In this document: piece by piece, positions 1 through 64,000 of the stretch
Layout: every line of letters begins with the position of its first letter
How positions within the stretch are numbered: position 1 is the stretch's first letter
Origin: Marchantia polymorpha subsp. ruderalis
Taxonomy: Eukaryota > Streptophyta > Marchantiopsida > Marchantiales > Marchantiaceae
Assembly: GCA_037833965.1 (NCBI GenBank)
Contig: AP031358.1
Span: 18,608,001 to 18,672,000, forward strand
Reading direction: 5' to 3'
DNA: 64,000 bases
Made by a program: the position numbers and the translations under genes
The notes under the pieces: generated by a model
Seen by the model: the letters and a program-made list of their open reading frames with translations, nothing else
The model's database searches: none
Told to the model about the DNA's origin: nothing

Positions 1-1152
1 AAGTTGAAATCGGATTTCATTCGTAACATCAATGACAAACTTGAGGAAATGCCCTTGGAAAGGTTGCACTTGATGGAGAAGGAAGAGTTGATGCACTTGA
101 TGGAAAAGGAAGAGTTGTTCCACTATGAGCAGTGTTGGCCTCGGATTGAAAGGTACACCGGCGGAATATCCGAACTAGCAAGGGATTTGTTGTGGAAGAG
201 CGATGTGGATGCAGTTGTGAATGAGATTTGCCAGAATCGAATTCTACAATTAGAGTCATTGCAGGAAGCTATAGATAGCGTGGACAATGATTTGGCTCAG
301 TGTTATCCTAAAGCTGAAAACATGGTTAGCAACTCTAATTTTCCACAAATAAAAGATCTCAAACCACCCACATCCAGGTGCTTGAGTCCGGCCAGCACAA
401 GTGTGGAGAATCCTTCGACCCAACTTATTATGTCCAAGATTGAGGAGGAAGCAGAAAAGATACTACAAAAGCTTGATGGTATGGATGAGAGGTTAAGATC
501 AATGCAGAGCTCAATGGGACAGATACTCTCTGTGCAACAAGAACTGCAGTCAAAGTTGAGTGTCTTCATGTCTAAGGTGGACAAGAGCATTGGCTATTCG
601 CAAGAGATTCAGCAGCGGAAAACGCCTAAACGACCCTATGTTACGGATGATGTGGGACATTTCTATAGGTTGAGTGCAGGTCTGCATGTCGGGAAAATTG
701 TTCGACTTCACTTGATGTGTGAGTCGATGACTGGGTTTCACACTGTCAAAGATCAAGAAGGGTTGAAGTTAAGATTGGATTTGGAGAAGTGGGAGTGGAT
801 TCGGAGAACTATTGAAATTTCGTACAAAGTCATATATTATGGTGCAAAGGCTGCACTGACTAAGTTCTGCGGGTTGGGCGAAGCGATTCCGGCCTGGGCA
901 GATTTGGAATCGGATATTGTTAAACTGGATGGTATTAGCAATGAAGATCGCAGGGCAGTTCTAACAGGTGGGGATAGCAAGGAGCTGCAAGAAGCATGGT
1001 TGAGGATTCAGCAAATTCTTGCGCCTGAGCTTGAAAATCGCTATTCCAAAATCTTCAAGTTGTATTTGGTGAGCTTAAAAAAAGGTGGGCATGCATGGGT
1101 GTGCGAGAAGTGCATGAATAAAGGCCGTGATTGTGGAATTTTGACATGTTAG
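1..1152 (+). CDS. ROCO GTPase gene A, 3' end of last exon (partial)
   Basis: The frame is open from the first base of the window (codon-aligned at base 1) to TAG at 1150-1152, giving 383 residues. It is the C-terminal part of exon 3 of an LRR-Roc-COR protein and is identical by eye to gene B from 21766 to 22917. It shows a short charged direct repeat (LMEKEEL twice, residues about 24-38), a coiled coil at about residues 144-194 (KILQKLDGMDERLRSM type heptads), then an unrecognised module of about 180 residues rich in aromatic and basic residues, ending HAWVCEKCMNKG with a CxxC. The LRR, Roc and COR parts lie upstream of the window. If the 21.8 kb duplication is a simple tandem one, the missing 5' part should be identical to gene B (inference). 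Confidence 0.9.
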   Translation, partial: KLKSDFIRNINDKLEEMPLERLHLMEKEELMHLMEKEELFHYEQCWPRIERYTGGISELARDLLWKSDVDAVVNEICQNRILQLESLQEAIDSVDNDLAQCYPKAENMVSNSNFPQIKDLKPPTSRCLSPASTSVENPSTQLIMSKIEEEAEKILQKLDGMDERLRSMQSSMGQILSVQQELQSKLSVFMSKVDKSIGYSQEIQQRKTPKRPYVTDDVGHFYRLSAGLHVGKIVRLHLMCESMTGFHTVKDQEGLKLRLDLEKWEWIRRTIEISYKVIYYGAKAALTKFCGLGEAIPAWADLESDIVKLDGISNEDRRAVLTGGDSKELQEAWLRIQQILAPELENRYSKIFKLYLVSLKKGGHAWVCEKCMNKGRDCGILTC

Positions 1153-15180: not shown

Positions 15181-15306
15181 GATTTCTGTTTGCATGTACA
15201 TTCATTATGACTTTATGTAGTGTTGTGAAATAAATCACCAGTTAATGGAACACTTGAAAGAAAAACATCTAAAAAATTTTTCAACGAGGACAAAATCAAG
15301 CAGGAT

Positions 15307-17727: not shown

Positions 17728-20700
17728 ATGGACTCCGCACACGAGGAACCGGAGCTTCCCTCCGCCATCCAGGACCTTCTACAGCGTCTGGAAGGACAAG
17801 GCGAGCCTTTAACGCAGCTTCCCCGTTTAAGCGGGCCAGAATTTCTGGAGTTCTTTCCGGAGCGTGCATCACTTTCGACAATCACAGGGTGGCGAAGCCA
17901 AGTGCGCCTTCGAGTGCTGGAGGCAATCGGCAACTGCAACACCTTTGAGAGTCTGAGTGTGTATTATCTTTGCGGGGGAGATGTATCGAGGTTGACGGCA
18001 AGCGAGTGGGAGATCGTTTTCAGAGGTTTCAGGTCAAGCACCGTTCTAAATGAAATAACCCTTTATGATTTGAAATGGAGTTCAGATGCGGAAGTGGAGA
18101 CCTTGTGCTTAGAGCTGGGGAGAATTCTGAACTCCTCTAGCGTATCAACATTAGAACTGTGGAATTGCAGATTGAGTGCCAGATGTTGGTCGAATCTCGC
18201 CTCAGGACTGCGAGGACATTCCGATTCTAAACTCCAGTCTTTGATTGTATGGGACGCGTGGGAGGACGAGAGTGCGGTGAAGCATGTGGCTGAGATGATC
18301 AACAGTGCTCCTCTATTAGAAACGTTGAGTTTAAAGAAATGGAAGGAGTGGGAGGACATGGAGGACGAGACCGTTGGAATCCTGTCCCAGGCGTTGATCC
18401 AGAGCTCGTCGTTGAAGGTATTGGTCCTGAGAGGCCAGGTGAAGTGGGGAGGGCCCTTGTTGCTGAAAGCATTGGCCGGAGACAATCGCAACCGATCCAT
18501 TGAACGTCTTGAACTAGCGTTTATGGATGGAATCGGAGACTGTTTAAGGGAAATACTTATTTCCAACCCATCATTGAAGGAAGTGAAGCTGTACATGGTG
18601 AAGATGAGTCCTGAGGAATGGCACCAGCTCGGCGAAGTCATACGTGACAATGCTATAGCCACAACTATACTTGTTTACTTTTACTTAGACCGCAATGAAT
18701 GGAAGTCAATAGAAGCTCTTGCTCTTTCTGCTAGCTCCGATGTCAAGGACCCCATACTGGAGCTGGAGCTTGAGAAGAGGGAAGATAAGGTGAAGTTGTC
18801 ATTAAACCTATTAGGTAGGGTGCTGCGCGGGGAAATCAAATCTTTAAAATCTTTGAGTGTGTTGAGGCATGGTGGAAAAATCTTCACTTTCAGTATCCTC
18901 CCAATGAATGGGAAAACTGGAGAAACCTCAATCCAGAAGAGACTGGAATTATCTGTTCGAAGTGAAGATCTTTCGAAGGGAGAATGGGAGGAGCTGCTTC
19001 GGTGCATGCGAGGGAACCACCTCACTCACTTGGATTTGTGTCACTCCAGACTCGACCAGGAGGCGTTCAGGGACGTGATGGGAGTACTGCAAGTGAACTC
19101 GGCTCTCATCAAGGACTCCACACTGGAGCTTGACCTCCAAGCACAGAGTGAAGATGAAGTGATGTTATCATTAAACCTGTTAGGGAGGGTGCTGCGCGGT
19201 GAAATCCAATTTCTAAAATCTTTGAGTGTGTTGAGGCATGGTGGAAAAATCTTCACTTTCAGTATCCTCCCAATGAATGGGAAAACTGGAGAAACCTCAA
19301 TCCAGAAGAGACTGGAATTATCTGTTCGAAGTGAAGATCTTTCGAAGGGAGTATGGGAGGAGCATCTTCGGTGCATGCGAGGGAACCACCTCACTCACTT
19401 GGATTTGTCTGACTCTGAACTCGACGAGGAGGCGTTCAGGGACGTGATGGGAGTACTGCAAGTAAACTTGGCTCTCCAGGAAATCGACGTCTCACGAACA
19501 TCGTGGGCAACGGACGGAAAGGCGTCGCTGATTCAAGAGTCCCTGCAACAGAACAAGGAGCGGGCCGTCTACATGTCTGTGTTCCGGGAAGCGAACTTAA
19601 CATTCGGAGATGCAAAAGCTGGCCGACTCTTCTTATGCGGCTCTCCTCGAGCAGGTAAGATGCGCTGTAAATTCTCAGTTTTTTCCTGAATGTAAGCCAA
19701 CTAGCAATTTATGGTTTAGCTTTTCTAAAACTAAGATTGGCACTACAAATGTTATTTTGATCTATATATAATGATGCGTTTATACAAATAGTAACGGAAA
19801 GAAAAAAAAATATCAAATGTGTAAATTACTAATTATGTAACTTCAATCATTTTGGTGATTTATACTTTTTCCAGTCGAATTTATTTTCACATATTAAAAT
19901 AATATCATGTCATATTGTATCTCAAGAATATCAATTCAAAGCACTTCTAAAGATATTGGTAATAACAAGTTGTGGATTTTGTGATGTGACATCCAGGAAA
20001 AACTCAACTGCGTAAAACCTTGATGAGGATAAATCATAGCTGGCTACACAGAAGCAGTCCATTCATGAAATGGGAGGCATTGTGGAGAACCAAAGGGATT
20101 GAAGTGGAGTTTTTGCAAAACAATGACAAAATGCAAATCTCAGTTTGGGATCTTGCAGGACAATGGATTTTCCGTACCCTTCAAACTGTACTCTTCCCTC
20201 AAACCAACAATTTTTGTGTTTTTTTTTTTGTGTATAACCCTTTCTGTGAAGAAACATCTTCAATCAAACCAGAATCTTGTTTCAAAACTGAGTTGGAGGA
20301 GTGGTTGAGTTTTATAACATCTAGCACTAAGGTCACAGGACGTGATCTTCCCCAAGTTATTGTTGTGATTTCTCACAAGGATAAAGCCATATCCAGCTCT
20401 TTGAGTTGGGCTCATCCCATAGTGGAAGAATTGACTAAAAGATTCGCAAACTTTGTGGATCTTCGTCCTATTCAAGAGTGTTTTCATGTGGATGCTCGGA
20501 AGAAGAAGCAAGTTAGTTCTCTTAACAAACACATTTTTGAGAATTTCCACAAGGTGTTGAGAGAGAAATCCCCACAAGTTCCCGAATTGTGTTTACAGCT
20601 CACCTCTCTCTTGGTTACAAACACCAAGAAGAACAAAAGTTTTCCTTTGTGGCCATCCGAAAAGTTTTATGATTTTTGTGTTTCCGATTTGAAAAAGTTC

Positions 20701-22917
20701 ATTCCATCATCTTCTGCTCACTCTGTTGAACATTCAAGGATAATGCAATCTATCATATCCTATTTGAATGATGTTGGATCCATCATTTACATCCCCAACC
20801 TTGATTACATCATTGTCGATCCCAACTGGCTCACTAATACCTTCTTGGGTGAGCTGATAACTCTGGGTCAAAACTTTCAAGCTCAAAAGCCAGAGTCTTC
20901 TTATAGTATGAGCTCATACGCAAGCAAGGACGGATTTGTGAGCGAGATTGTCTTTGCTGGACTGATAGAGAAGTTTATGGGAAAGCAACCACTCTTTCAA
21001 CATGTGGATAGAAAGGTGCTTGAAAACATTCTCATCAATTTAGATTTGTGTTTCAAGCTGGAAGATAATTCTGAGTATTTCATTCCTTCCTTCATCCCTG
21101 AGCATGCAAGCAAGGAGGAACAGAATCATGGAGAAGGTGCCCACGCGAAGTCGATGGATTGGGAAAATAGAGGTGACACTCCACAGTTTGTCGGCATACG
21201 GATTCAATGCAAAGATGAAAGAACAATGTCACTTACTGCTGCTTTTTTTCCACGCTTCCAGGTGAGCTTCAATCATGATTTCATAAACACAGTGAAAACA
21301 TTGTTTGTGTCAAGTTTTGATTGTAATTTGCGTATGATGAATAGAATGCTCCTTTTTTTTTAATGCAACACATTATTCAAATGTTTAACTCAATATTTAC
21401 CAAGTATTCTATGATTGTAGATGTTCATGAGACGCAAGTTGATATCCGAGATGGGTGTTTCCGGGAAGAATGTGAACTTCTCTCGACATTGTCTCCGACT
21501 TTTTCTTGACGGGCATCAGATATATATCGAGCACGTTCAGAATGAAAAGTCCCACAAATACGTTGATGTTCTGATGTTATGCTCGAGTCAAAAGTCAAAG
21601 GAGTCGGCTGTTACATACGTGAGGAAAAATATCGTCCAGGAGTTGATATCATTTTGTGCATCACCGAAAGGCTGTCCAGGGGTGGCGTTAGTGCTCAGTG
21701 TGATCCAAACATTTTGTGTGGAGATGCTGATTCCAAGTCATCTCAGAGGAGCCATCCTGATCGAGAAGTTGAAATCGGATTTCATTCGTAACATCAATGA
21801 CAAACTTGAGGAAATGCCCTTGGAAAGGTTGCACTTGATGGAGAAGGAAGAGTTGATGCACTTGATGGAAAAGGAAGAGTTGTTCCACTATGAGCAGTGT
21901 TGGCCTCGGATTGAAAGGTACACCGGCGGAATATCCGAACTAGCAAGGGATTTGTTGTGGAAGAGCGATGTGGATGCAGTTGTGAATGAGATTTGCCAGA
22001 ATCGAATTCTACAATTAGAGTCATTGCAGGAAGCTATAGATAGCGTGGACAATGATTTGGCTCAGTGTTATCCTAAAGCTGAAAACATGGTTAGCAACTC
22101 TAATTTTCCACAAATAAAAGATCTCAAACCACCCACATCCAGGTGCTTGAGTCCGGCCAGCACAAGTGTGGAGAATCCTTCGACCCAACTTATTATGTCC
22201 AAGATTGAGGAGGAAGCAGAAAAGATACTACAAAAGCTTGATGGTATGGATGAGAGGTTAAGATCAATGCAGAGCTCAATGGGACAGATACTCTCTGTGC
22301 AACAAGAACTGCAGTCAAAGTTGAGTGTCTTCATGTCTAAGGTGGACAAGAGCATTGGCTATTCGCAAGAGATTCAGCAGCGGAAAACGCCTAAACGACC
22401 CTATGTTACGGATGATGTGGGACATTTCTATAGGTTGAGTGCAGGTCTGCATGTCGGGAAAATTGTTCGACTTCACTTGATGTGTGAGTCGATGACTGGG
22501 TTTCACACTGTCAAAGATCAAGAAGGGTTGAAGTTAAGATTGGATTTGGAGAAGTGGGAGTGGATTCGGAGAACTATTGAAATTTCGTACAAAGTCATAT
22601 ATTATGGTGCAAAGGCTGCACTGACTAAGTTCTGCGGGTTGGGCGAAGCGATTCCGGCCTGGGCAGATTTGGAATCGGATATTGTTAAACTGGATGGTAT
22701 TAGCAATGAAGATCGCAGGGCAGTTCTAACAGGTGGGGATAGCAAGGAGCTGCAAGAAGCATGGTTGAGGATTCAGCAAATTCTTGCGCCTGAGCTTGAA
22801 AATCGCTATTCCAAAATCTTCAAGTTGTATTTGGTGAGCTTAAAAAAAGGTGGGCATGCATGGGTGTGCGAGAAGTGCATGAATAAAGGCCGTGATTGTG
22901 GAATTTTGACATGTTAG
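17728..22917 (+). CDS. LRR-Roc-COR (ROCO) GTPase, gene B
   Basis: There are three exons: 17728-19654, 19997-21261 and 21421-22917, giving 1562 residues, all junctions GT-AG and in phase. I chose the ATG of MDSAHEEPELPS because it is conserved in genes C and D and gene D has a stop just upstream. Residues about 70-640 are ribonuclease-inhibitor-like LRRs with an internal 123-residue duplication. The Roc GTPase follows: Walker A GSPRAGKT (638-645, split by intron 1), WDLAGQ (693-698) and SHKD (768-771, the THxD-type base-specificity motif). COR (about 840-1130) shows NDVGSIIYI and IIVDPNWL. A coiled coil lies at about 1323-1373, then an unrecognised module ending in CEKC. ROCO proteins are dimeric GTPases used in signalling; TORNADO1 is the plant relative I know. 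No kinase domain is present. Exon 3 is identical to gene A over the overlap. Confidence 0.95.
18748..19482 (+). repeat. Intragenic LRR duplication in gene B exon 1 (about 369 bp x 2)
   Basis: Two in-frame direct units (about 18748-19113 and 19114-19482) each encode KLSLNLLGRVLRGE-like, FSILPMNGKTGET and CMRGNHLTHLDL blocks. The offset over most of the unit is 369 bp. In gene B the segment from SLSVLRHGGKIFTFS to SEDLSKG is the same in both units, whereas in gene D the two units differ there. Gene C has one unit. Confidence 0.95.
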
Positions 22918-26564: not shown

Positions 26565-27018
26565 TTCATTCTACAGTAACTCCCAGTCAATCGTAACCTT
26601 GTTTGTTATCAGAGTTCAAACCTTGCTCTAGAAAGACAATAAGCTTTACGAATGAACAGCGATTGGAGCAACAACATCAAAATATGAGTATGAAATCCTG
26701 TCATCTCTTTCTTACTCAACTGTAAGAATAAGCGTAAGGAATATATGAAGATAAGCATCCAACTTTGCATGTTTGTTAGAGGTGCACAAAAGGCTATGAC
26801 TATGACTTCCTTAATATTTAGACTATGACTTTCTTTAATGTGTAATCTGACCTACTTTATACGACATGTTTTCATTACAATATATTGCTTCATAGAAAGC
26901 AATAGTTAGTATCATACATCGAATACCAGTCATGATTTTAAATATATACATTTGATCTACTTGTATTTATACATAATGTATTATATTCCATGACCAAGGT
27001 AACTAGATCACTCTGCAT
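26565..27018. other. AT-rich spacer, nothing recognised (second copy)
   Basis: This is the duplicate of 4800-5253. No gene is seen. Confidence 0.5.
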
Positions 27019-31905: not shown

Positions 31906-31914
31906 TCATTCCTC

Positions 31915-32325
31915 ACCATATTCCTTCTTTATTGATCCATTCGAGCAAGTTGATGTACTCTGAGGACTGAGCGGCTCATGCGTCGTCATCTTGGTGGACA
32001 AAGCATGTTTCGTTTTTTTGCTGCTTTGAATATCGGGACAGTAGTCTATAACTTCTAGCTTCGGAAGAAACCTAACAGCTGTGTGGAAGTTTCCTGAAGA
32101 TACCAGTACTCCAGGCTCTCCAATGCTGTGGTGATTGTTCTTCTAGCTCATCTGTCAAGCATGTGAGCGCATGCACAGTTCTAGTTCCAGAGTTCTATCC
32201 ACTTCAAACACTTTAAATCGAGTTTCGTCTTTGCTGAGAACACCCTTGCTTGCTTATCGCGTCATTTAGAACCAGCATGATCTTGGCTAAGGATAAGGTC
32301 AATCGTCTGAAGAAGTTACATTTTG
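31915..32325 (-). repeat. Inverted fragment of the ROCO 5'-flank sequence (second copy)
   Basis: This is the duplicate of 10150-10560, the reverse-complement relative of the 5' flanks of genes B, C and D. Confidence 0.75.
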
Positions 32326-35300
32326 GAACTTGCTTCGAAATGAAGATAACCTGTGTTGTACACAGGACTAGAAAAATACTTCATATGCTATATGTAAGCT
32401 GACAATGATTTAGAACAAGACATTATTCATTATAAGTGAAAGTATTACGTTTCTCATAATATTTCTTTCTGGCTTCAGAGATTTTGAGTGTAAGATTCTT
32501 CAGATGTTTCAATTGCTTTTGATCTTTGGCGCCTTGATTCTTGGATTTTTTATTTAGAGCCATCATCAAACTTGATGCAACTTAAGAATATTTCAATATT
32601 ACAATTTGACTAATGATATAAAATGGTAGATGTTTACGACTAAGATATTCAAGTTGGGACAAAAAGGTAATCAGAGCCCCTTCAGTAATTTTTTTGAGGT
32701 GTAAATAAAAACTCAAAACTCTGGATGCATTTTGGTCAGAATTTTTTAGACCTGGTCAGAATTCATTTGAAAGTTTTTTTTTACATGATGTTATTTGATT
32801 ATTTTGTGGTGTAGTCTAACAGTTGTCATCGCTCAATGTTCTTGGATTTTACAAATATCCATTGATGAACTTGTAGGAAAAGTTCACCGAAGTATTGTTT
32901 TTGTTAGCAATAATTGCATTCAAATCAAATTCCACTTGATTCAAATTGAATTCAAGTGTAAAAAAAATTTGCATTGTTTAAATGCAATTTTAAATTTTTT
33001 TCTCTAAAAAAAGTTGATAGAGAATCAAACCAAAAAATGAAAAAACTACAATCAACATAAAATTATGCGGTTCATCATTTCAAGCTACATAATCTAGATC
33101 TGTAGTTGTATGATTCTATTAGTGTTAGATTCAATTAGAGAATTAACCATTACTATCCTACTCAAAATTAAGTTTAGCTAGTTTGTAAAACTTTAACTTG
33201 CCACTCAGTTAAACTTAAACTTAGTCTAAATAATCAAAATTTAACTATTTAGAAAAAAACACATCGACTTCAGATATCAATGCAGAAGATTGAGCTAGTA
33301 ATACTTCAAATAAGAAGGTTGAGCTAATTAAGATTGATGGCTATTCAATTCAACTAATGCGTTCAACAAATTAATCTTTTATAGAGTTTTGAAACACATC
33401 GTGTTATTTTGAAGGTTTTGCATGAGAAGAACAAGTATGTTTTACTGGCAATTTTGTTATCTTTATATATATACTCTATTTGGCATTGATTTAATTCTGA
33501 TTAGTGATAGTTTTAAAACTATCTATATTAGATTTGTTTATGAAATATTATGAATCAATTATAGGTTTTTCATTAATTAATGGTTCGACCCCGACCCAAG
33601 AAAAGTCATAATTAATGTAGATTAAGATCCCGCGATATGAGTTGAACAAAATAAATCTAAACTAAAATAAATTTTTAGTTTGGTTTAATCTAATTTTTCA
33701 AAGCTTTTAAATTGTCACAATATAAAAGATAGTTTGCAAAACCTCCCAACAACACAACTTAGGATTGTTTTTTATAAATGTTTTTGTATTTTTGTGGACT
33801 ATGTACATGGAAACACAAAATGATGAACCATTTATGTCTGCTATATCCATGTGTGTATGTCCAATATGGCCGTGCGTTTGCGTGATTGTAACGATGTTTT
33901 GTAAGTTTCAACTTTTAGAATTAAAACATAAAAGACGGAATGATGAAAAAATTTACTCCATCTTGAATAACAACATACTTTTTTCCACAAAATATTTTCA
34001 TGAGGTTAGTGATAGCATTGATGAAAAATAAGAATAATAGAGTTTAATCTAATTATTCAGCTAATGTAGGAGATTCATTGACAAAGATTGTGAAATAAGT
34101 CAAAATAGATTTAAAAAATGTTGAAAGAACATAATTTTTCTAGTTTGATATGATGTCTTCCCATAAATATTTTGAATGAAGCAATATTCATTCAAGAAGA
34201 TTGAAAAATGTGATAAAAATAATTGGGTGAAAGGATTTAGGGTTTAGATGGAAATAGAAAAAGAAATATATATAGATAAAAATAGATACCAGATTCGAAT
34301 CAAAAAATTATGAAATTATGTGTTAAACTTATACTTTTATATAGCTAACAAATTATCAAATTATGTGTTAGAAATTATGATTGGTGAAGCAATTCATGCT
34401 TAAAATGTGTATATTTTGAAAATTATATGAAATATGATTGAACACAATTAGTCTAATATTTTAAATGAATTTTCATGATCTTCATCTAAGAGTCAAATGT
34501 ATCATAATCTGTAGATTTTATCCAAAAATGCATTGATCTTCAAAAATGTTATATTATTTCAAAAATGTTATATTATTAAAAAAATTTAAATTGTTTTTAA
34601 AAAATGAGTCATCTAATTGCACTTTACTAGACATCATTCACGTACATCATGAAAGCATGCATAAAGTACCTTGTTTAGAATCAGCAAACAATGCACACTA
34701 AAAAATCACAAATATTCAACATCTTGTACAATCATCTGGATCCTTAAGAAAACACTCTACCACCATTAATTCAATCGAATAGAAACTATATCTTATGACG
34801 GTATCAATATTAATTCAGTACAATATTTTTCAAAACTGAAATTTTAAAAGATTAAAATTTTTACATAATATTCAATGTATCCAAATTTAATTATATATTT
34901 GTTCTATTCTCAAATAAGAGGACATTTCAAAAAATGGATCTTCAAGTTTAGTTTATAAATTAAACTTGATAGAGCAGAATAAAACATCACATATTGCATT
35001 GTTCTTATCTTTATTCAGAAGAGAAAATGAAAATCCTTATATTGATTTTTGACTTAGGGTTAGTAGGACTTTTGTTATAGATTTTAGTGTAAAGTTTTTG
35101 AATTCTTACATTTTACAAATTCACATATTTCAGTTTCATATTCTTTTAATAGTTAATTATTCTAGTGAAAATTATTCCTATAAGAAATTAGCCCTTATAT
35201 ATGTTGATTTTCTCACCATGTATTCATATATAATCAAAAAATATATAATTTATATTTTCATATTTAGACATATGATTAGATTACACGAAAAGTTTCTTAA

Positions 35301-36065
35301 CTTCTGTTCAACTATGTCAAGCAGGATTGAGTTTGGAATTAATAGGTGTTAAAAATAGTTATGCTAAATATATTCAAATCAGATTAATGATAGAGAACAT
35401 AAATTGAAACCTAAAGTGTCTTTTTGACCTACTGTTAATCATATTTTAACAACTAAAGTAAACATGGGCAAGGTAATAAGAAATGATTCACTCAAACTCC
35501 AAAAATATACATTACAGTAAGCAATTGCTTACTTTAAAACGATCCCAAGTGAAATGAATGTAAAATAAGTGATCAATTTGATAACTTTTAACATTGCATT
35601 ATATTTTAGAAATCTCTTTTTCTGTGACTGTTAGCTTTTTAAACTGTGGTTTGTAGTTTAATGCTTAAAATTTGCCTCAATTATTGCATACACTTCACAA
35701 AAAACTCACGTTCATAATCTCAGATTTATAAATATTTACTGGGTACTAGGACATGAGAACCCTGGACCAAGAAATTATACCTAGTATGAATATATACTAT
35801 AGAACATTTTGCATTATATATTCTTGAATCCAAGTTTTATTCAGGCAATATTCTGCATTTGACACAATTAGACAAGCTTTCCTCGATTAAGTTGATACAT
35901 TATCATGTGATTTCATGAACAATTTAAAAATTAAAGATGGAGATGAAGAAAATTGATTTGAAATCACATTTCAGATATCTGAAGCAAGGGCTGAACTGAA
36001 GAAAAAGAGGAGCTGTCTGATTATAAAGATAAAGAAATTTTTGCACAAACTCTTATTCCATGTTA
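32326..36065. other. Long AT-rich spacer, no gene supported (second copy)
   Basis: This is the duplicate of 10561-14300. No assignable exon is present. Confidence 0.4.
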
Positions 36066-36358
36066 ACCTTAAAAGGTGACGTTAGAAATATGACATTTAA
36101 TTAAATTATGAACCTAACTCCTCAACTTTGTGGAAGTTGTTATAGGGGCCATCGGTACGATTTCAACAATGTAGAGGTTAGACAAAGATCATGTGATCCA
36201 TCTGCCACATTGGGCGACTATCAATTGCTTTCTGAGAATATGAGCAGACTTTGATAATTCTCAGCCTTACTTTTTTGTCAGTCTCATGTCAGGAACTCAT
36301 CGTTGACTGTAACCTGAAGTACATCAACAGATGGAGTTCGTCAGCAAGAAATACATTA

Positions 36359-36487
36359 TATATTGGCGCAATTACTGTGTGCTGTATTGACCTGCATTCA
36401 CCTTTCATGGTCTGATAAACACGTTCCTTGAGGAATGCGGCGGCCTTCGCACCACCATGGCCACTACTCGTGGCTTCCACATACACC
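36359..36487 (-). pseudogene. Isolated exon-like fragment with GHGG motif (second copy)
   Basis: This is the duplicate of 14594-14722. It resembles one PP2C motif only, with no other phosphatase motif nearby. Confidence 0.3.
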
Positions 36488-36653
36488 GTATCCTGCGGAT
36501 ATGAAGGACCTTAAGCAGAAACTACAAGAAACAGAGCGACATCGAGAGAAATGTTACGGCTAGTGCAGAACAACGTTGGTGACATTACAGAAGACAATTT
36601 AAAATGTAAAAGCAGCCCAGCATAGGCTCAAGGACATGAAGCGCGATATCAAG

Positions 36654-36945
36654 TCACGCTATGGCCTTTGACAACTGAGAGGGATCAGTCCCTGTACATC
36701 GAGTAATCAAGCAGTCGTGGGCGCCCAGCCACAGCTCCTGAATGCCATGATTTTGAGCACATTGTTGTGCACACGATTTAGTTCGTGATTTGTTTGATTC
36801 TTCATGCTTGAAATTTGTTCGAAATCTGCTTTGCTGGCAACGTCGTGCAAGTCTGCAGAAACGGCAGCATACCTGTTTCTGGTGGCGAGATTGGTGATGC
36901 GGCGAGGTTTGAACTGGTGAACAGCCTGCCATCAATTGAGCTGGT
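36654..36945. other. Coding-like fragment shared with 54797-54860 (second copy)
   Basis: This is the duplicate of 14889-15180, including the plus-strand SAETAAYLFLVARLVM stretch. Confidence 0.35.
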
Positions 36946-37071
36946 GATTTCTGTTTGCATGTACATTCATTATGACTTTATGTAGTGTTGTGAAATAAAT
37001 CACCAGTTAATGGAACACTTGAAAGAAAAACATCTAAAAAATTTTTCAACGAGGACAAAATCAAGCAGGAT

Positions 37072-39468
37072 ATTTATGAATGTGCTTTTAATCACATAAA
37101 TAACGTGAAATAACCCTAAACAAATAACCTAACGTTAATTTTTTGACGTAATCACCAGTAACAATAATTACTTTATAATTAAATTTAAATCATCTGAAAT
37201 TTCTTTTGAGAGATTGCTCTCAATGTTTAAAAACAACAAATAATTAAAACAAAAAATATCAATTTCACTTTAAATATTTGTATCATTTGAGTTCTGAAAC
37301 ATCATAATTTTTCTTTGGAAATGAATTTCAAATAAAAAATTAATTACCATGTAGTTTAGATCCAGAAGTATTTTTAAAAAAAATACGTATTGATTATTTA
37401 TATATAACTTTGATTGAGAATTAATTTTTTATGTCCATAGATATTATCCTAATCCAAATTTTTCATAATGTATACTAAATACAAGATTCAAATATGAAAT
37501 AAAAATTAAAACATAGCTAAATTTCTTTTCAAGAATTGTTCAAATTTTCAATTTTCTTTTAAACATTTTAATCTATTATAGATCAAAATACTTAAGCACA
37601 AAACGTTTAGTGCACAGAATGTGTTTGATGAAATTTAAGCTATCATAGAAAATTTGAATATATAAATGATATACTAATTGCAAGCATCTTTATTGATTTG
37701 TTTTTAAAAAAAAACGCTTCACACTATGCAACTTCAAATTTCTGACTCAATAATTTGAATCGAAAGACTATTTTGTCTCTTAATCAAACTATCTGCAATG
37801 CAATCAGAAATTTACTATTCAGATTTATACTGCAACATGCTCTCAATCTCACTTAAATCCCAATATCCAAAATTTTCATGTGTAAAACAAATCAAAAATA
37901 TAAATTCTCTAATATTTATTTGAAAATTTATATTTTACTATTTTATTTAGATTAATTAAAAAATTATTCTCATTACAATCATATAATTTAAATGCAAAAA
38001 AATATTAAAATGTATGATTAACTATCCAAAGAAGTATTATTTGGCAACATATCATTCATTCACATAATCAACATATTTAGCTCATTCATATTTCCATTGT
38101 TTTACAATTAGAAAATTGAATCCATTGCAGGAGGATTACGTTGAGATCGTGAAGGCCATGCTTAAAGCGTAAAGACCAGGCTGTCATCTTAGCAGCACGA
38201 ATTCATCATGCGATCTCTGTATTCACGATCATTCATTTTGGCTTTGCAAACTCACCAAAAAAATACAAAGACCTCCAAACTGTGCATGCATTCACATACT
38301 TGACAGCTGGGGTAGAAGAACAATCATAGCAGCAGTTGATAACCTCGAGTACTGGTATCCTCTGTATACAGTTGTTCGATATCATAGTTAGTAAAATCCC
38401 AAAAGGCTTCTCAGTCTTTTCTGAACCTAGAAGTTATTTACAATAATGTGCACAACTGTTCTGGGTCAAAAGTAAGAAAAATCGTAACATGCTAATTACA
38501 GCTGACTACGCATGTGCCACTCAGCTGTCAGAATACATCCACTTGCTCCAACAGATGGAACATGCCAGATAAATGAATTAATAAAGACGAAAGTTCTAAT
38601 GGAAATTGTTAATGTGACGTCATCGAGAGTATCATCACACTGACGCATTCACCCACGTTTCCTCTCCGCTTGCACAACAAAGTCAAGATCTACTCTGACC
38701 TTGTAACACCATGTTCCAATCACAGAGTATGAAAGAACACGATTTTTGTGTTCAAATGTTGTCATTGCCGTGATCGCTCACACGATTCAATGAGAAGATC
38801 TGATTGAAGATGAGGCATGCTTTTTCCCCACGCTAGCCATCGTAGTGTCTGTCTTCCCGTTGGTCTTGATGCAGCTAGATTCGCAGTCTCCCAGTACAAC
38901 TGTACATTCAGTTTTTCCACAACCCAGAGTTCATCGCATCTGAGAGATCTGCAATATCATGCATTCTATGACATTTTGCTTTCACATCGCGCCATCTTTG
39001 CTGAGAATTTGATTTCAGGTACTTTTGCAGAGCTATCATCTTGTCCACTCACTTCGATCACTAGTGCACATCGAGCCTTGATAGACGTGAAGTCCTTTTT
39101 GCCACACGGTCTACGATTTAGCTTGGTACTAGAATCCTGGTATTCTGTGTCAATTTTGATTCCCATCGCTTGTCCCGAGCTCCAGCATCCTCCTACTTCC
39201 ACTTTGCACAATCTCCCTGAGTTGGCGTTGATTGCTCCAGATCTCGGAGTGATATTTCTGTTGCTACTTGTGCGCAGTGCAAGAGAATTCATGCCCAGCA
39301 CGTTCATGTGACACTACGAAGGGAAGATCAGTTTTCTTCGGGAGAGCCGGGCTTTCGGATTGAAGAGAGGGCCTCCTGTACGCGTTGAAGGAGAGAGCAG
39401 GAGAGAAAGGAAGGGGCAGGTGCGTCCATCGTCTGTCACGCTGCTGCACTTGCGACTCGACTTGTGAA
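37072..39468 (+). repeat. ROCO 5'-flank repeat upstream of gene C
   Basis: This is nearly identical to gene B's flank up to 37832, then diverges: single changes at 37833 and 37937, a one-base insertion near 38339, clusters near 38532-38538, and many changes after 38870. The frame at 38817-39311 (164 codons) is longest in this copy. No promoter element is certain. Confidence 0.8.
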
Positions 39469-42400
39469 ATGGACTCCGCACGAGAGGAACCGGAGCTTCC
39501 CTCCGCCATCCAGGACCTTGTCCAGCGTCTGGAAGGACAAGGCAGGCCTATAACGCAGCTTCCCTATTTAAGCGGGCCAAAATTTCGGGAGTTCTTTCCG
39601 GAGCGTGCATCACTTTCGACAATGACAGGGTGGCGAAGCCAAGTGCGCCTTCGAGTGCTGGAGGCAATCGGCAACTGCAACACCTTTGAGAGTCTGAACG
39701 TGGGAGACATTTGTGATGACGATATATCGAGGTTGACGGCCAGCGAGTGGGAGATCGTTTTCAGAGGTTTCAGGTCAAGCACCGTTCTACAACGGATAAG
39801 TGTTGATTGGTTAAGGGCTTCAGATGATGCGGAAATGGAGAGCTGGTGTTTAGAGCTGGGGAGATTTCTGAATTCTTCTAGCGTATCAAAATTAGAACAC
39901 TGCCAGTGCAGATGGAGTGCTAGATGTTGGTCGAATCTCGCCTCAGGACTGCGAGGACCTTCCGATTCTAAACTCCAGTCTTTGAAGTTATGGAACGCGT
40001 GGGAGGACGAGAGTGCGGTGAAGCATGTGGCTGAGATGATCAACAGTGCTCCTCTATTAGAAACGTTGTGTTTAAAGCGCTTTCAGAAGGACATGGAGGA
40101 CGAGAACGTTGGAATCCTGTCCCAGGCGTTGGTCCAGAGCTCGTCGTTGAAGGAATTGAAGTTAATGAACGTGAAGTGGGGAGGGCCCTTGTTGCTGAAA
40201 GCATTGGCCGGAGACGATCGCAACCGATCCATTGAACGTCTTCGGCTGTGGGGTATGGATGAACCCGGAGACTGTTTAAGGGAAGTTCTTATTTCCAACC
40301 CATCATTGAAGAAAGTGGAGTTGCGCGACGTGGAGATGAGTCCTGAGGAATGTCACCAGCTCGGCGAAGTCATACGTGACAATGCTATAGCCACAACTAT
40401 ATATGTTAGCTTTTATGGTGATGACGACTGGAAGTCAATGGAAGCTCTTGCTAGTTCTGCTAGCTCCGATGTCAATGACCCCACACTGGAGCTTGACATA
40501 GGGATTTGGGGGAAGGAGGAAGATAAGGTGAAGTTGTCATTAAACCTATTAGGTAGGGTGCTGCGCGGTGAAATCAAATCTCTCAAATCTCTGATTATAC
40601 GGCAGAGTGATAAACCAATTATCACTTTCAGTATCCTCCCGATGAATGGGAAAACTGGAGAAACCTCAGTCCCGAAGAGACTGGAATTATCTGTTCGAAG
40701 CGAAGATATTTCGAAGGGAGAATGGGAGGAGCTGCTTTGGTGCATGCGAGGGAACCACCTCACTCACTTGGATTTGTCTTTCTCCGAACTCGACGAGGAG
40801 GCGTTCAGGGACGTGATGGGAGTACTGCAAGTGAACTTGGCTCTCCAGGAAATAGACGTCTCACAAACATCGTGGGCAAAGGACGGAAAGGCGGCGCAGA
40901 TTCAACAGGCCCTGCAGCAAAACAAGGAGCGGGCTGTCTACATGTCCGTGTTCCGAGAAGCCAACTTAACATTCGGAGATGCAAAAGCTGGCCGACTCTT
41001 CTTATGCGGCTCTCCTCGAGCAGGTAAGATGCGCTGTAAATTCTCAGTTTTTTTCTGAATGTAGGCCAACTAGCAATCTATGGTTTAACTTTTCTAAAAC
41101 TAAGATTGGCACTACAAATGTTATTTTGATCTTTATATAATGATGCGTGTATACAAATAGTAATGGAAAGAAAAATAAAATAAAATGTGTAAATCACTAA
41201 TTATGTAACTTCAATCATTTTGGTGATTTATACTTTTTTCAGTCGAATTTATTTTCACATATTAAAATAATATCATGTCATATTGTATCTCAAGAATATC
41301 AATTCAAAGCATTTCTGAAGATATCGGTAATAACAAGTTGTGGATTTTGTGATGTGACGTCCAGGAAAAACTCAACTGCGTAAAACCTTGATGAGGATAA
41401 ATCATAGCTGGCTACACAGAAGCAGTCCATTGTTGAAATGGGAGGCATTGTGGAGGACCAAAGGAATTGAAGTGGAGTTTTTGCAAGACAATGACAAAAT
41501 GCAAATCTCAGTTTGGGATCTTGCAGGACAATGGATTTTCCGTACCCTTCAAACTGTACTTTTCCCTCAAACCAACAATTTCTGTGTTTTTCTTTTTGTG
41601 TATAGCCCTTTTTGTGAAAAAACATCCTCAATCAAACCAGAATCTTGTTTCAAAACTGAGTTGGAGGAGTGGTTGAGTTTTATTACATCTAGCACTAAGA
41701 TCACAGGACGTGATCTTCCCCAAGTTATTGTAGTGATTTCTCACAAGGATAAACCCATATCCAGCTCTTTGAGTTGGGCTCATCCCATAGTGGAAGAATT
41801 GACTAAAAGATTCGCAAACTTTGTGGATCTTCGTCCTATTCAAGAGTGTTTTCATGTGGATGCTCGGAAGAAGAAGCAAGTTAGTTCTCTTAACAGATAC
41901 ATTTTTGAGAATTTCCACAAGTTGTTGAGAGAGAAATCCCCACAAGTTCCCGAATTGTGTTTACAACTCACGTCTCTCTTGGTTACAAACACCAAGAAGA
42001 ACAAAAGTTTTCCTTTGTGGCCATCCAAAAAGTTTTATGATTTTTGTGTTTCCCATTTGAAAAAGTTCATTCCATCATCTTCTGCTCACTCTATTGAACA
42101 TTCAAGGATAATAGAATCTATCATATCCTATTTGAATGATGTTGGATCCATCATTTACATCCCCAACCTTGATCACATCATTGTCGATCCCAACTGGCTC
42201 ACTAATACCTTCTTGGGTGAGCTGATAGCTCTGGGTCAAAACTTTCAAGCTCAAGAGCCAGAGTCTTCTTATAGAATGAGCTCATACGCAAGCAAGGACG
42301 GATTTGTGAGCGAGATTGTCTTTGCTGGACTGATAGAGAAGTTTTTGGGAAAGCAACCACGCTTTCAAAATGTGGATAGAAAGGTGCTTGAAAACATTCT

Positions 42401-44272
42401 CATCAATTTAGATTTGTGGTTCAAGCTGGAAGATAATTCTCAGTATTTCATTCCTTCCTTCATCCCTGAGCATGCAAGCAAGGAGGAACAGAATGATCAA
42501 GAAGGGGTGCACGCGATGAAGTGGAAAAATAGGAGTGAGACTTCGAAGTTTGTCGGCATTCGGATTCAATGCCAAGATGAAACAACAATGTCACTGACTG
42601 CTACTTTTTTTCCACGCTTTCAGGTGAGGTTCAATCATGATTTCATAAACACAGTAAAAGCGTTGCAATTAGCATTTGATGAAGAGAATGTATCCTTTTC
42701 ATTTATTGTGACGAATTCTTAGAATGTCTCACTAGAGATTTACCAAATTTTCTATGATTGTAGATGTTCATGAGACGCAAGTTGATATCCAAGATGGGTG
42801 TTTCCGAGGAGAATGTGACTTGCTCTCGACATTATCTGCAACTTTTCCATGACGGGCATCGGATATATATCGAGCACGTCCAGGGTGAAAAGTCTCACAA
42901 ATTTGTAGATGTTCTGATGTTATGCTCTAGTCGGAAGTCAAAGGAGGAGGCTATTACATACGTGAGGAAGCATATCGTCCAGGAGTTGATATCATTTTGC
43001 GCATCACCAAAAGGCTGTCCCGGGGTGGCATTAGTGCTAGGTGTGATCCAAACTTTTTGCGTGGAGATGTTGATTCCAAGTCATCTCAGAAAAGCAATTC
43101 TGATCGAGAAGCTGAAATCTGACTTCATTCGTAGCATCAATGACAAACTTGAGGAAATGCCCTTGGAAAGATCACACTGGATAGAGAAAGAAAAGTTGTT
43201 GCACTTGATGAAGGAGAAAGAGTTGTTCCACTATGAGCATTGTTGGGCTCCGATTGGAATGGATACGGGCGGAATATCCGAACTAGCAAGGGATTTGTTA
43301 TGGGAGAGCGATGTGGAAGCAGTTGTGAATGAGATTTGCCTGAATCAAATTCAACAATTGGAGTCATTGCAGAAAGCTATAGTTAGCGTGGACACTGATT
43401 TGGCTCAGTGTTATCCTGAAGCTGAAAACATGGTTAGCGACTCGAATCTCCCACAAATGAAAGACCTCAAACCACTCACATCCAGGTCCTTGAGTCGGGC
43501 CAGCACAAGTGTGGAGAGTCCTTCGACCCAACTTATTGTGTTAAAGATTGAGGAGCTGGGAGAAAAGATAGTACAAAAGCTTGATGGTTTGGATGAGAGG
43601 TTAAGATCAATGCAGAGCTCAATGGGACAAATACTCTCTGTGCAACAAGAGCTGCAATCAACTTTCAGTGTCTTCATGTCTAAGGTGGACAGGATCATTG
43701 GCTATTCGCAAGCGTTTCAGCAGGTAAAAACGCCCAAACGACCCTATGTTACGGACGATGTGGGAGAATTCTATAAGTTGAGTGCAACTCTGCATGTCGG
43801 GAGAATTGTTCGATTACACTTGATGTTTGAGTCGGTGACTGGGTTTCACACTGTCGAAGATCAAGAAGGGTTGAAGATACGATTGGATTCGGAGAAGTGG
43901 GGGTGGATTCGGAAAACTATTGAAATTTCATACAAAGTCATATATTATGCTGCAAAGGCTGCACTGACTAAGTTCTGCGAGTTGGGCGATGCGATTCCGG
44001 CCTGGGCAGATTTGGAATCAGATATTGTTAAACTAGATGTTAGCAGTGAAGATCGCAAGGCAGTTCTTACAGGTGGGGAAAGCCAGGAGCTGCAAGAAGC
44101 ATGGTTGAGGATTAAGCAAATTCTTGCGCCTGAGCTTCAAAATCGCTATTCCAAAATCTTCAAGTTGTATCAGGTGAAGTACGTGAGTTTAGAAAAAGGT
44201 GGGCATGCATGGGTATGCAAGAAGTGCATGAATAAAGGCCTTCGTAGTGGAAGTTTGACAGTGGAAGTTTGA
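39469..44272 (+). CDS. LRR-Roc-COR (ROCO) GTPase, gene C
   Basis: The exons are 39469-41023, 41365-42623 and 42764-44272, giving 1440 residues, with GT-AG junctions in phase. It starts MDSAREEPELPS. The LRR domain has a single unit where genes B and D have two, which accounts for most of the length difference from gene B. Roc motifs are intact: GSPRAGKT split by intron 1, WDLAGQ and SHKD. COR shows NDVGSIIYI and IIVDPNWL, then the coiled coil and the C-terminal module ending CKKC. Exons 2 and 3 resemble gene B closely, while LRR strand residues differ much more. The 3' end differs from gene B by a slightly longer tail (TVEV). It reads as a functional paralogue of the same signalling GTPase family. 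Confidence 0.95.
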
Positions 44273-60202: not shown

Positions 60203-63200
60203 ATGGACTCCACACACGAGGAACCGGAGCTTCCCTCCGCCATCCAGGACCTTGTCCAGCGTCTGGAAGGACAAGGCGAGCGTATAATCGCGCTTCCCGA
60301 TTTAACCGGGTCAGAATTTCAGGAGTTCTTTCCGGAGCGTGCATCACTTTCGACAATCACAGGGTGGCGAAGCCAAGTGCGCCTTCGAGTGCTGGAGGCA
60401 ATCGGCAACTGCAACACCTTTGAGAGTCTGAACGTGGGAGACATTTGTGGGGACGATATATCGAGGTTGACGGCAAGCGAGTGGGAGATCGTTTTCAGAG
60501 GTTTCAGGTCTAGCCCCGTTCTAGAAGAGATATCCCTTCGTTTTTTGAAATGGAGTTCAGATGCGGAAGTGGAGACCTTGTGCTTAGAGCTGGGGAGAAT
60601 TCTGAACTCCTCTAGCGTTACACGATTAGATGTGTACGGGTGCAGATTGAGTGCCAGATGTTGGTCGAATCTCGCCTCAGGACTGCGAGGACATTCCGAT
60701 TCTAAACTCCAGTCTTTGATTGTATGGGACGCGTTGGAGGACGAGAGTGCGGTGAAGCATGTGGCTGAGATGATCAACAGTGCTCCTCTATTAGAAACGT
60801 TGAGTTTAGAGAAATGGAAGGAGTGGAAGGACATGGAGGACGAGACCGTTGGAATCCTGTCCCAGACGTTGATCCAGAGCTCGTCGTTGAGAGATTTGGG
60901 CCTAGGAGGCGCGGGGAAGTGGGGAGGGCCCTTGTTGCTGAAAGCATTGGCCGGAGACGATCGCAACCGATCCATTGAACGTCTTGAGTTGTCGCGTATG
61001 GATGGACTCGGAGACTGTTTAAGGGAAATACTTATTTCCAACCCATCATTGAAGGAAGTGAAGCTGTACAAGGTGAAGATGAGTCCTGAGGAATGGCACC
61101 AGCTCGGCGAAGTCATACGTGACAATGCTATAGCCACAACTATATATGTTAGCTTTTATGGTGATGACGACTGGAAGTCAATGGAAGCTCTTGCTAGTTC
61201 TGCTAGCTCCGATGTCAATGACCCCACACTGGAGCTTGACATAGGGATTTGGGGGAAGGAGGAAGATAAGGTGAAGTTGTCATTAAACCTATTAGGTAGG
61301 GTGCTGCGCGGGGAAATCAAATCTTTAAAATCTCTGAGTATAGGGAACTATGAAGATTTTCAGTTTAGAAAATATCTCACTTTCAGTATCCTTCCGATGA
61401 ATGGGAAAACTGGAGAAACCTCAGTCCAGAAGAGACTGGAATTATTCCTTCGAAGAGAAGATATTTCGAAGGGAGTATTGGAGGAGCTGCTTCGGTGCAT
61501 GCGAGGGAACCACCTCACTCACTTGGATTTGTGTCACTCCAGACTCGACCAGGAGGCGTTCAGGGACGTGATGGGAGTACTGCAAGTGAACTTGGCTCTC
61601 ATCAAGGACCCCACACTGGAGCTTGACCTCCAAGCACGGAGTGAAGATGAAGTGATGTTATCATTAAACCTGTTAGGTAGGGTGCTGCGCGGTGAAATCC
61701 AATCTCTAAAATCTCTGAGAGTGAGAAACCAGAGTGAGAAACCAATTATCACTTTCAGTATCCTCCCGATGAATGGGAAAACTGGAGAAACCTCAGTCCA
61801 GAAGAGACTGGAATTATCTGTTCGAAGCGAAAATCTTTCGAAGGGAGAATGGGAGGAGTTGCTTCGGTGCATGCGAGGGAACCACCTCACTCACTTGGAT
61901 TTGTCTGACTCTGAACTCGACGAGGAGGCGTTCAGGGACGTGATGGGAGTACTGCAAGTAAACTTGGCTCTCCAGGAAATCGACGTCTCACGAACATCGT
62001 GGGCAACGGACGGAAAGGCGGCGCTGATTCAAGAGTCTCTGCAACAGAACAAGGAGCGGGCCGTCTACATGTCTGTGTTCCGGGAAGCAAACTTAACATT
62101 CGGAGATGCAAAAGCTGGCCGACTCTTCTTATGCGGCTCTCCTCGAGCAGGTAAGATGCGCTGTAAATTCTCAGTTTTTTCCTGAATGTACGCCTTTAAT
62201 CTTAGTTTTACTTTTCTAAAACTAAGATTGACAATACAAATGCTATTTGATATATTTATAATGATTTGTGTATACAAATAGTAACGGAAAGAAAAACAAT
62301 CAAATTTATAAATCATCAATTATATAACTTCAATTATTTTGGTGATTTCTACTTTTTTCAATCAAATTTATCTTCACATATTAAAATAATACTATGTCAT
62401 ATTGTATCTCAAGAATATTAATTCAAAGCATTTGTGAAGATATCGTTAATAACAAGTTTTGTATTTTGTGATTTGATGTCCAGGAAAAACTCAATTGCGT
62501 AAAACTTTGATGAGGATAAATCATAGCTGGCTACACAAAAGCAATCTGTTCAATAGATGGGAGGTATTGTGGAGGACCAAAGGGATTGAAGTGGAGTTTT
62601 TGCGAAAAAATGACGAAATGCAAATCTCAGTTTGGGATCTTGCAGGACAATGGATTTTTCGTACCCTTCAAACTGTACTTTTCCCTCAAACCAGCAATTT
62701 TTGTGTTTTTCTTTTTGTGTATAGCCCCTTTTGTGAGGAAAAATCTTCAAAGAAACCAGATTCTTGTTTTGAAACTGAGTTGGAGGATTGGTTGAGTTTC
62801 TTCACATCTAGCATTAGGGTCACTGGACGTGACCTTCCCCAAGTTTTTGTTGTCATTTCACACAAGGACAAAGCCATATATAGCTCTGTGAGTTGGGCTC
62901 AGTCAATAGTTGAAAAACTCACCCAAAGATTCGCAAATTATGTGGATCTCCGCCCTATTCAAGAGTGTTTTCATGTGGATGCTAGGAAGAAGAAGCAAGT
63001 TAGCTCTCTTAACAGACACATTTTTGAGAATTTCCACAAGTTGTTGAGTGATAAATCTCCACAGGTTCCCAAATTGTGTTTACAACTCACCTCTCTCTTG
63101 GTTACAAACACCAAGAAGAACAAAAGTTTTCCTTTGTGGCCATCCAAAAAGTTTTATGACTTTTGTGTTTCCGATTTGAAAAAATTCATTCCATCTTCTT

Positions 63201-64000
63201 CTGCTCACTCTGTTGAACATTCAAGGATAATGCAATCTATCATATCCTATTTGAATGATGTTGGATCCATCATTTACATCCCCAACCTTGATTACATCAT
63301 TGTCGATCCCAACTGGCTCACTAATACCTTCTTGGGTGAGCTAATAGCTCTGGGTCAAAACTTTCAAGCTCAAGAGCCAGAGTCTTCTTATAGAATGAGC
63401 TCATACGCAAGCAAGGACGGATTTGTGAGTGAGAGTGTCTTTGTTCGGTTGATAGAAGAGTTTCTGGGAAACCAATCACATGGACAGAGAGGTGTGGATA
63501 GAGAGAAGCTTGAAAACATACTTGTCAATTTAGATTTGTGTTTCAAGCTCAAAGATACTTCTCAGTATTTCATTCCTTCTTTCATCCCGGAGCATGCAAG
63601 CAAAGAAGAACAGAAGCATGAAGAAGGGGCACACGTGGACTCAATGTTTTGGGATAATAGGAGTGAGACTTCACAGTTTGTCGGCATTCGAATTCAGTGC
63701 CAAGATGAAATAACAATGTCCCTGACTGCTGCTTTTTTTCCACGCTTCCAGGTGAGGTTCAATCATGAATTCATAAACTCAGTGAAAACATTGTATGTGC
63801 CAAGTTCTAATTGTAATTAGCGTATGATGAAGCAAATGTTTTCTTTTCATTAATTGTGACAAATTATTTGAATTTCTCACTAGAGATTTATCAAATTTCT
63901 ATGATTGTAGATGTTCATAAGACGCAAGTTGATATCCGAGGAGATGGGTGTTTTCGAGGAGAATGTTATCTGCTCTCGACATTATCTGCGACTTTTCCTT
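60203..64000 (+). CDS. LRR-Roc-COR (ROCO) GTPase, gene D (3' end outside window)
   Basis: The exons are 60203-62150, 62484-63751 and 63911 to beyond 64000, all GT-AG and in phase. It starts MDSTHEEPELPS. The LRR domain carries two units of the internal duplication (about 61220-61606 and 61607-61990), like gene B, but the two units differ from each other in the variable strand (SIGNYEDFQFRKY versus RVRNQSEKPII). Roc has GSPRAGKT split by intron 1, WDLAGQ and SHKD. COR has NDVGSIIYI and IIVDPNWL. Exon 3 is open to the window edge (MFIRRKLIS). It is complete as far as visible and probably functional. Confidence 0.93.
61220..61990 (+). repeat. Intragenic LRR duplication in gene D exon 1
   Basis: Two in-frame direct units with an offset of 381-387 bp encode FSILPMNGKTGET and CMRGNHLTHLDL blocks twice. 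They are more diverged from one another than the two units in gene B. Confidence 0.93.

Follow-up and report, generated by a model that had tools for sequence, protein, structure and literature searches.

An LRR-Roc-COR gene family of Marchantia polymorpha with diversifying selection on exposed strand residues and mosaic LRR exons

Closest described systems

The leucine-rich repeat (LRR) Roc-COR genes treated here stand in tandem in a 64,000-base stretch of the Marchantia polymorpha subsp. ruderalis genome (C9:18608001-18672000, where C9 is its contig, apparently chromosome 8 of strain Tak-2; the whole stretch is called the window below). Exposed residues of their LRR strands are under diversifying selection, and the exon that encodes the LRR domain is a recombinant mosaic. 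The nearest described counterparts are the LRR-ROCO genes of brown algae, which, according to the parts of Teng et al. 2024 (PMC11378527) that were available, are expanded, carry four positively selected concave-face sites and are candidate immune receptors. The liverwort family is like them, as far as the same parts go, in its LRR-Roc-COR order, its expansion and its positively selected concave-face sites; because concave-face selection has already been reported for brown algae, the kind of system is a known one. The organisation is different. In most brown-algal groups every LRR occupies a separate 72-bp exon that undergoes shuffling and alternative splicing, and the genes of N. decipiens are mostly dispersed (PMC11378527, in the parts available). 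In the liverwort genes B, C and D of the window, in contrast, the LRR domain lies in a single exon of 518-649 codons, not in one 72-bp exon per LRR; many genes of the family stand in tandem arrays, and the mosaics arise inside the exon. The brown-algal genes are also said to have been the subject of a 2012 study by Zambounis et al.

Microbe recognition inside land-plant cells is attributed mainly to nucleotide-binding LRR receptors (NLRs), for which tandem clusters, diversifying selection at LRR strand sites and a conserved nucleotide-binding core are general knowledge. The liverwort family resembles NLRs in these three respects. It differs from them in that B, C and D have no NB-ARC match, their core being Roc-COR, and in that the best fold matches of the predicted LRR domain are to ribonuclease inhibitor, CARMIL and animal NLRP proteins. 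A homologous Roc-COR is found in the plant LRR-ROCO TORNADO1: in a search with MPTK1_5g17320 the sole named flowering-plant match was one TORNADO 1-like protein, at 28% identity to its Roc-COR region. TORNADO1 is a developmental gene, whereas the liverwort clade is large and fast-changing.

The LRR-Roc-COR architecture is shared with bacterial CtRoco and with LRRK2. No kinase was found in the liverwort LRR-Roc-COR proteins, which differ from both also in their hypervariable concave face and unclassified C-terminal part. The available portion of PMC11052575 indicates that concave-face binding can unlock CtRoco, and that the open form is a GTP-bound monomer. In a Marchantia infection study (PMC12890914), leucine-rich-repeat domains and NLRs are up-regulated, and the main text, in the portion available, is without the word GTPase. 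No literature report of a Marchantia LRR-Roc-COR family was found, judged by title, and subscription papers, including the M. polymorpha pangenome paper, may mention it. As far as these searches show, what is new is a land-plant family with a one-exon LRR domain, tandem arrays, within-exon mosaics, decoupling of exon 1 from exon 2 and possibly a tie to NB-ARC.

Variation, selection and mosaicism

Four genes, all on the + strand, lie in the window: A with its 3' end only, B and C in full, and D up to a cut within exon 3. The complete plan has three exons, of which exon 1 encodes the LRR domain, exon 2 Roc-COR, and exon 3 the COR-B position and a C-terminal part. An initial annotation of 60203-62150 had held that the paralogues differ mainly at LRR strand positions while the intervening helices and Roc-COR stay fixed. 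The interval is precisely exon 1 of D, an intact gene with three exons, and the three strand triplets and the unchanged helix SARCWSNLASGLRG that it quoted are present in the alignment of B, C and D.

The predicted structure served to define the exposed sites, which are residues 1, 3 and 5 in each of seven five-residue strands together with the two residues following each strand (35 sites); the mask takes the seven regular strands and leaves strand 75-77 and the irregular C-terminal repeats unclassed. Between residues 100 and 309, 25 of the 34 gap-free exposed columns are variable among B, C and D; in the L-core the count is 3 of 14, and among the other columns 26 of 159 (Fisher p = 1.7e-10 for exposed versus other columns), which bears out the proposed clustering. 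With a wider mask (strand plus three residues) over residues 70-339 of the eight distinct cluster genes, none of 269 shifts matches the observed nonsynonymous level.

The claim that exon 2 differs at few positions holds for B and C (37 amino acid differences) and less well for D, which differs from each of them at 64. With 78 of 420 columns variable, and with B and C in one of two Roc-COR clades and D in the other, it was wrong to regard Roc-COR as fixed; a better description is of two Roc-COR clades to which freely exchanged LRR exons are joined. The dN between B and D is close in the two exons (0.076 in exon 2, 0.080 in exon 1). Exon 2 is set apart by dN/dS, which in pairwise comparisons of B, C and D is 0.29-0.57, versus 0.76-0.91 for the whole of exon 1.

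Selection was estimated in 26 of the 34 genes examined (DNA from 34 of the 66 places described below): eight from the C9 cluster, seven from C5 and eleven dispersed ones. The omitted genes are L015, L016, L017, L018, L020, L021 and L022, which are near-identical copies of genes used, and L042; L018 is gene C and enters the B/C/D counts only. By codon maximum likelihood (ML), in which every repeat block had its own tree and the exposed sites had their own, free synonymous rate, dN/dS (omega) at these sites is 7.98 in C9, 3.53 in C5 and 2.69 in the dispersed set, values that could be inflated by the absence of multi-nucleotide substitutions from the codon models. An omega fixed at 1 is rejected in each set (twice the log-likelihood difference, 2dlnL, 20.8, 9.6 and 20.1, respectively). 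Under a shared synonymous rate the values are 11.4, 7.1 and 4.4. The initial annotation had named a concave-face omega near or below 1 as the result that would speak against it; the estimates for this site class exceed 1 and support its view of the pattern as a mark of selection on a binding face.

When the mask was slid along the alignment under the shared rate (every second shift from -8 to +16), the likelihood peaked at shift 0 in all three sets. The lead over the next best shift is 61 log-likelihood units in C9, 65 in the dispersed set and 10 in C5, where the next best is +2; once the mask is moved by +8 to +16, omega lies at 0.42-0.63 in C9 and at 0.58-1.06 in the dispersed set. Pairwise estimates by the Nei-Gojobori method (NG86) in C9 (8 genes, 28 pairs) give dN 0.558, dS 0.230 and omega 2.42 for exposed strand residues with the following two, and omegas of 0.25 for the L-core, 0.72 for the helices, 0.28 for exon-1 residues 536-649 and 0.32 for exon 2. 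The likeness of the C9 helices is due partly to low overall divergence (dS 0.04) and partly to constraint. Exposed sites and L-core have pairwise omegas of 1.98 and 0.50 in C5, of 1.76 and 0.34 in the dispersed set (helices 0.87), and of 2.25 and 0.28 among B, C and D alone (0.82 elsewhere). Strand by strand, omega is above 1 in 19 of 21 strand-by-set combinations, the exceptions being strand 109 in C9 (0.78) and strand 199 in C5 (0.87).

The mosaic nature of exon 1 is seen in eight genes, where 45.7% of its informative-site pairs are incompatible, versus 3.5% in exon 2. By the pairwise homoplasy index (PHI), nearby sites of exon 1 are over-compatible to an extent reached in 0 of 500 permutations, and exon 2 has no signal (208 of 500). 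Gene L013 matches B up to codon 150 and then, starting at about codon 180, matches L011, and strand variants reappear in differing combinations across genes. The exon-1 and exon-2 distances are uncorrelated (Mantel r 0.14, reached by 394 of 2000 permutations). Within the Roc-COR clades the mean difference is 2.2% in exon 2 and 9.3% in exon 1; between the clades it is 10.2% and 9.7%. D and the Tak-1 protein MPTK1_8g14480 are 99.8% identical in Roc-COR and only 86.5% in exon 1, in a comparison list made of representatives of 90% clusters, which may hide an exon 1 closer to D.

The annotation was right that the core is Roc-COR and not NB-ARC. In each of B, C and D, exon 2 gives matches to Roc and then to COR-A, none of which reaches the Pfam gathering cut-off for the exon alone; in the full-length protein P0001, Roc is over its cut-off (30.1 vs 27) and COR-A under it (25.6 vs 35.3). 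The P-loop GxxxxGK(T), DxxGQ and HKD motifs of Roco GTPases are present as GSPRAGKT, WDLAGQ and SHKD, which are identical in the three genes. NB-ARC has no match at E <= 0.001 in the nine window exon proteins or in P0001 or P0003, no Pfam LRR family reaches its cut-off in the window exon proteins, and a sequence search of solved structures with P0001 gave no match. The AlphaFold2 (AF2) model of D exon 1, built with 72 other sequences aligned, is a regular strand-helix solenoid with a mean predicted local distance difference test score (pLDDT) of 85.3. Its top Foldseek ranks are NLRP-containing complexes, CARMIL and ribonuclease inhibitor, with template modelling (TM) scores of about 0.3-0.57; the match to ribonuclease inhibitor 1a4y has E 4.5e-10 and TM 0.41/0.56. 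The N-terminal domain is modelled as a ribonuclease-inhibitor-like LRR domain.

With D exon 1 as query, at least 129 matches were found in at least 66 places of the M. polymorpha genome, a lower bound from 66 scored candidates out of 475. These places are distributed over C9 (26), C5 (30), C4 (4), C3 (3), C8 (2) and C7 (1), and are densest in the intervals C9 18.41-18.84 Mb and C5 16.8-18.25 Mb. In the same genome, 66 matches to the NB-ARC profile exceed its cut-off, although several are fragmentary or contain stops. By eye, NB-ARC matches and ROCO places do not in general coincide, but on C9 (5.16 Mb) and C5 (5.45 Mb) individual NB-ARC matches are some 30-80 kb away from a ROCO place. Among the best 120 of 134 matches, the closest Roc-COR relatives are in M. 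polymorpha, and next in M. paleacea and Riccia.

Riccia fluitans has an LRR-ROCO set of its own, many members of which have neighbouring locus numbers on one contig, and the same variability is seen there at the protein level. In 8 of 13 proteins (seven R1flu_029xxx and R1flu_010041; five shorter ones were dropped), with strands named by eye from the pattern of one sequence, the entropy is 1.44 bits at exposed strand residues and 0.89 at the two following; the L-core has 0.45, the remaining LRR positions 0.39 and Roc-COR 0.25. None of 386 mask shifts reaches the observed mean for exposed residues plus two, with the best shift close (1.17 vs 1.22). In a FastTree phylogeny of 41 chosen Roc-COR regions, the 10 Riccia sequences group in a clade of their own (support 0.998), as do the 16 from M. 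polymorpha (0.981), and therefore the two sets expanded apart. The Riccia proteins R1flu_028436 and R1flu_028445 have NB-ARC over its cut-off together with a segment that matches the gene B Roc-COR region at 36% identity; they have an LRR match below cut-off and a subsequent alpha/beta-hydrolase match, which is over cut-off in R1flu_028436 only. Judged from sequence, they are possibly an NLR-ROCO fusion, and, both being gene models, possibly neighbouring genes fused into one model.

Proposed working and its alternatives

The explanation that we favour, with a probability of about 0.62, is that the liverwort LRR-Roc-COR family forms a variable intracellular recognition surface, shaped by selection and paralogue recombination and coupled to a Roco switch that a ligand opens. 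Diversifying selection acts on the exposed concave-face strand residues of the LRR, and paralogue recombination (gene conversion or unequal crossing-over) mixes stretches down to about one repeat and also re-pairs LRR exons with Roc-COR exons. In the resting state the LRR would be folded onto Roc-COR in the manner of bacterial CtRoco. A variable ligand, either a microbial protein or a host protein altered by one, would bind the concave face, clash with the closed form and free Roc-COR into the open GTP state, which would signal through exon 3. Since CtRoco can be unlocked via its concave face and is GTP-bound when open, a variable concave face could be a ligand-gated switch, and by analogy the liverwort proteins may share both ligand binding and a closed-to-open transition. 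An immune role is possible by analogy, through the selection signature, the family size, the brown-algal precedent and the Riccia chains.

Several observations weigh against this explanation. The LRR curvature of closed CtRoco faces CORB, and a freely changing concave face would be awkward to reconcile with a conserved closed contact. As for the output step, the exon-3 model had no fold match at E <= 0.001, LRRK2 coming no closer than E 0.99. From positions compared by eye, the ROCO clusters do not sit within NB-ARC clusters, and the TORNADO 1-like match is to a relative with a developmental function. In C5 the slid mask keeps omega above 2 out to +8 (2.1), before values of 0.85-0.08 at +12 to +16, and the C5 helices have a pairwise omega of 3.18, on only 18 synonymous differences. 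Among B, C and D omega is 0.98 if the whole strand and three residues are pooled, a pooling that hides the exposed-site signal.

The recognised partner may not be microbial at all. Self/non-self or gamete compatibility, or a fast-evolving partner protein of the plant itself, would fit the selection and mosaic evidence equally well, as any recognition arms race would, and the developmental TORNADO1 is in keeping with such a function. The at least 66 exon-1 places beside 66 NB-ARC matches, and the Riccia chains of NB-ARC and Roc-COR, lean toward immunity, although neither is a test; we regard a non-microbial partner as unlikely, while allowing it an appreciable share of the probability.

Much less probable is relaxed constraint on a redundant tandem family, in which ectopic gene conversion makes neutral variation look patchy and no positive selection occurs. 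The strong recombination in exon 1, the frequency of near-identical copies, an omega near 1 in the rest of the LRR (0.87-1.18 under shared and 0.94-1.36 under free synonymous rates), and the pooled B/C/D and C5 helix values given above are all as it would have them. However, exposed-site omega is above 1 even when these sites have their own free synonymous rate and each repeat its own tree, and the separate rate itself adds little (2dlnL 0.19, 2.0 and 4.2 in the three sets). Moreover, the adjacent L-core is conserved, and the pattern recurs both in the dispersed genes, which are spread over several chromosomes, and in the Riccia clade.

Local hypermutation, or targeted diversification of strand codons without selection, has in its favour the chromosome-8 (C9) cluster, where pairwise NG86 dS at the exposed and L-core positions of the strands looks 6-8 times that of the helices; conserved L-core codons have a synonymous change of 0.228 per site, versus 0.036 in helices. 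Conserved exposed codons, however, are as low as helices (0.039 vs 0.036), the last of the three 2dlnL values is the only one that even barely calls for a separate exposed-site synonymous rate, and replacements spare the L-core. The explanation was dropped as very improbable when codon ML and the conserved-codon count traced the rise in NG86 dS largely to fast-changing and L-core codons. An assembly artefact or pseudogene array, which the exact spacing of the gene B copies (below) might suggest, is scarcely credible, because the signal comes from genes about 10% different and not from identical copies, 14 of the 15 cluster loci keep their splice sites and a long exon 3, Tak-1 has gene C at 99.6% exon-1 identity (MPTK1_8g15055), and the Marchantia plant is haploid, the copies therefore not being two haplotypes.

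Beyond the recognition surface favoured here, a wider proposal is put forward tentatively, at somewhat less than even odds: the Marchantiales may possess, beside NLRs, a second, GTPase-based repertoire of variable intracellular immune receptors, with Roco recruited independently in brown algae and in land plants, and with its core joined to an NLR in Riccia. Such a repertoire, if real, would be diversified by selection on strand residues and by combinatorial recombination of repeats, LRR exons and Roc-COR exons. It would be a second receptor system, comparable in number to NLRs and testable by knock-out in a haploid genetic model. To the biochemistry of Roco proteins (LRRK2, CtRoco) the family offers natural variants of the LRR concave face.

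Features of the window

Table 1. Coordinates of the LRR-Roc-COR genes and their parts in the window
Feature	Position	Strand	Remarks
Gene A, exon 3 only (rest before window)	1..1152	+	open frame; its exon 1 at C9:18603942
Gene B, exon 1, N-terminal region and LRR domain, 642 codons	17728..19654	+	
Gene B, exon 2, Roc-COR GTPase	19997..21261	+	Pfam Roc E 3.4e-5, COR-A E 4.6e-7, sub-gathering for exon alone
Gene B, exon 3, COR-B position, helical stretch, unclassified C-terminal part	21421..22917	+	AF2 mean pLDDT 67.6
Gene C, exon 1, LRR domain, 518 codons	39469..41023	+	single copy of the ~370-bp block doubled in B and D
Gene C, exon 2, Roc-COR	41365..42623	+	
Gene C, exon 3	42764..44272	+	
Gene D, exon 1, LRR domain, 649 codons	60203..62150	+	start codon ATG at 60203, splice donor following 62150
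Hypervariable strand zone 1, D residues 109-115	60527..60547	+	predicted structure and variability
Hypervariable strand zone 2, D residues 141-147	60623..60643	+	predicted structure and variability
Hypervariable strand zone 3, D residues 171-177	60713..60733	+	predicted structure and variability
Hypervariable strand zone 4, D residues 199-205	60797..60817	+	predicted structure and variability
Hypervariable strand zone 5, D residues 231-237	60893..60913	+	predicted structure and variability
Hypervariable strand zone 6, D residues 260-266	60980..61000	+	predicted structure and variability
Hypervariable strand zone 7, D residues 285-291	61055..61075	+	predicted structure and variability
Gene D, internal tandem LRR-block duplication	61258..61972	+	61258-61600 vs 61638-61972, 86% identical
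Gene D, intron 1, phase 1	62151..62483	+	interrupts second Gly codon of P-loop GSPRAGKT
Gene D, exon 2, Roc-COR	62484..63751	+	other of the two Roc-COR clades vs B, C
Gene D, exon 3 (L019), truncated by window end	63911..64000	+	open to 501 aa in genome

Because intron 1 cuts a P-loop glycine codon, the boundary between the LRR exon and the GTPase exon falls within the nucleotide-binding motif. Repeat number differs among the genes, the internal LRR-block duplication being present in B and D and represented by one copy in C. In a pattern search, all cluster loci but L012 proved to have kept their splice sites together with an exon 3 that is 496-502 codons long. Exon 2 of B is 98% identical in amino acids to MPTK2_8g14605.

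Gene B occurs in four genome copies, spaced by exactly 21,765 bases and with almost no differences; within the window, 1-16750 and 21766-38500 (about 16.7 kb) are 99.98% identical at this offset. The repeat is either a very recent tandem amplification or a matter of assembly. Gene D is present twice, with identical exon 1, and gene C three times, nearly identical.

The C-terminal part of exon 3 (in 21421-22917 and 42764-44272, ending in HAWVCEKC... or a similar sequence) matches no Pfam family and no known fold significantly, and may be an output domain. Rfam and tRNA scans of the window gave no match, nor did Pfam on eight spacer, overlapping and antisense frames. Two long antisense frames over the LRR exons, at 18063-18674 (203 codons) and 60319-61155 (278 codons) on the - strand, are without Pfam match and are probably codon-bias shadows. 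Ahead of the LRR, residues 1-69 (60203-60409 in D, and the same region in B and C) have a pairwise omega of 1.82 in the eight cluster genes and 3.3 among B, C and D, and contain, by eye around residues 25-42, a second fast patch besides the strand zones.

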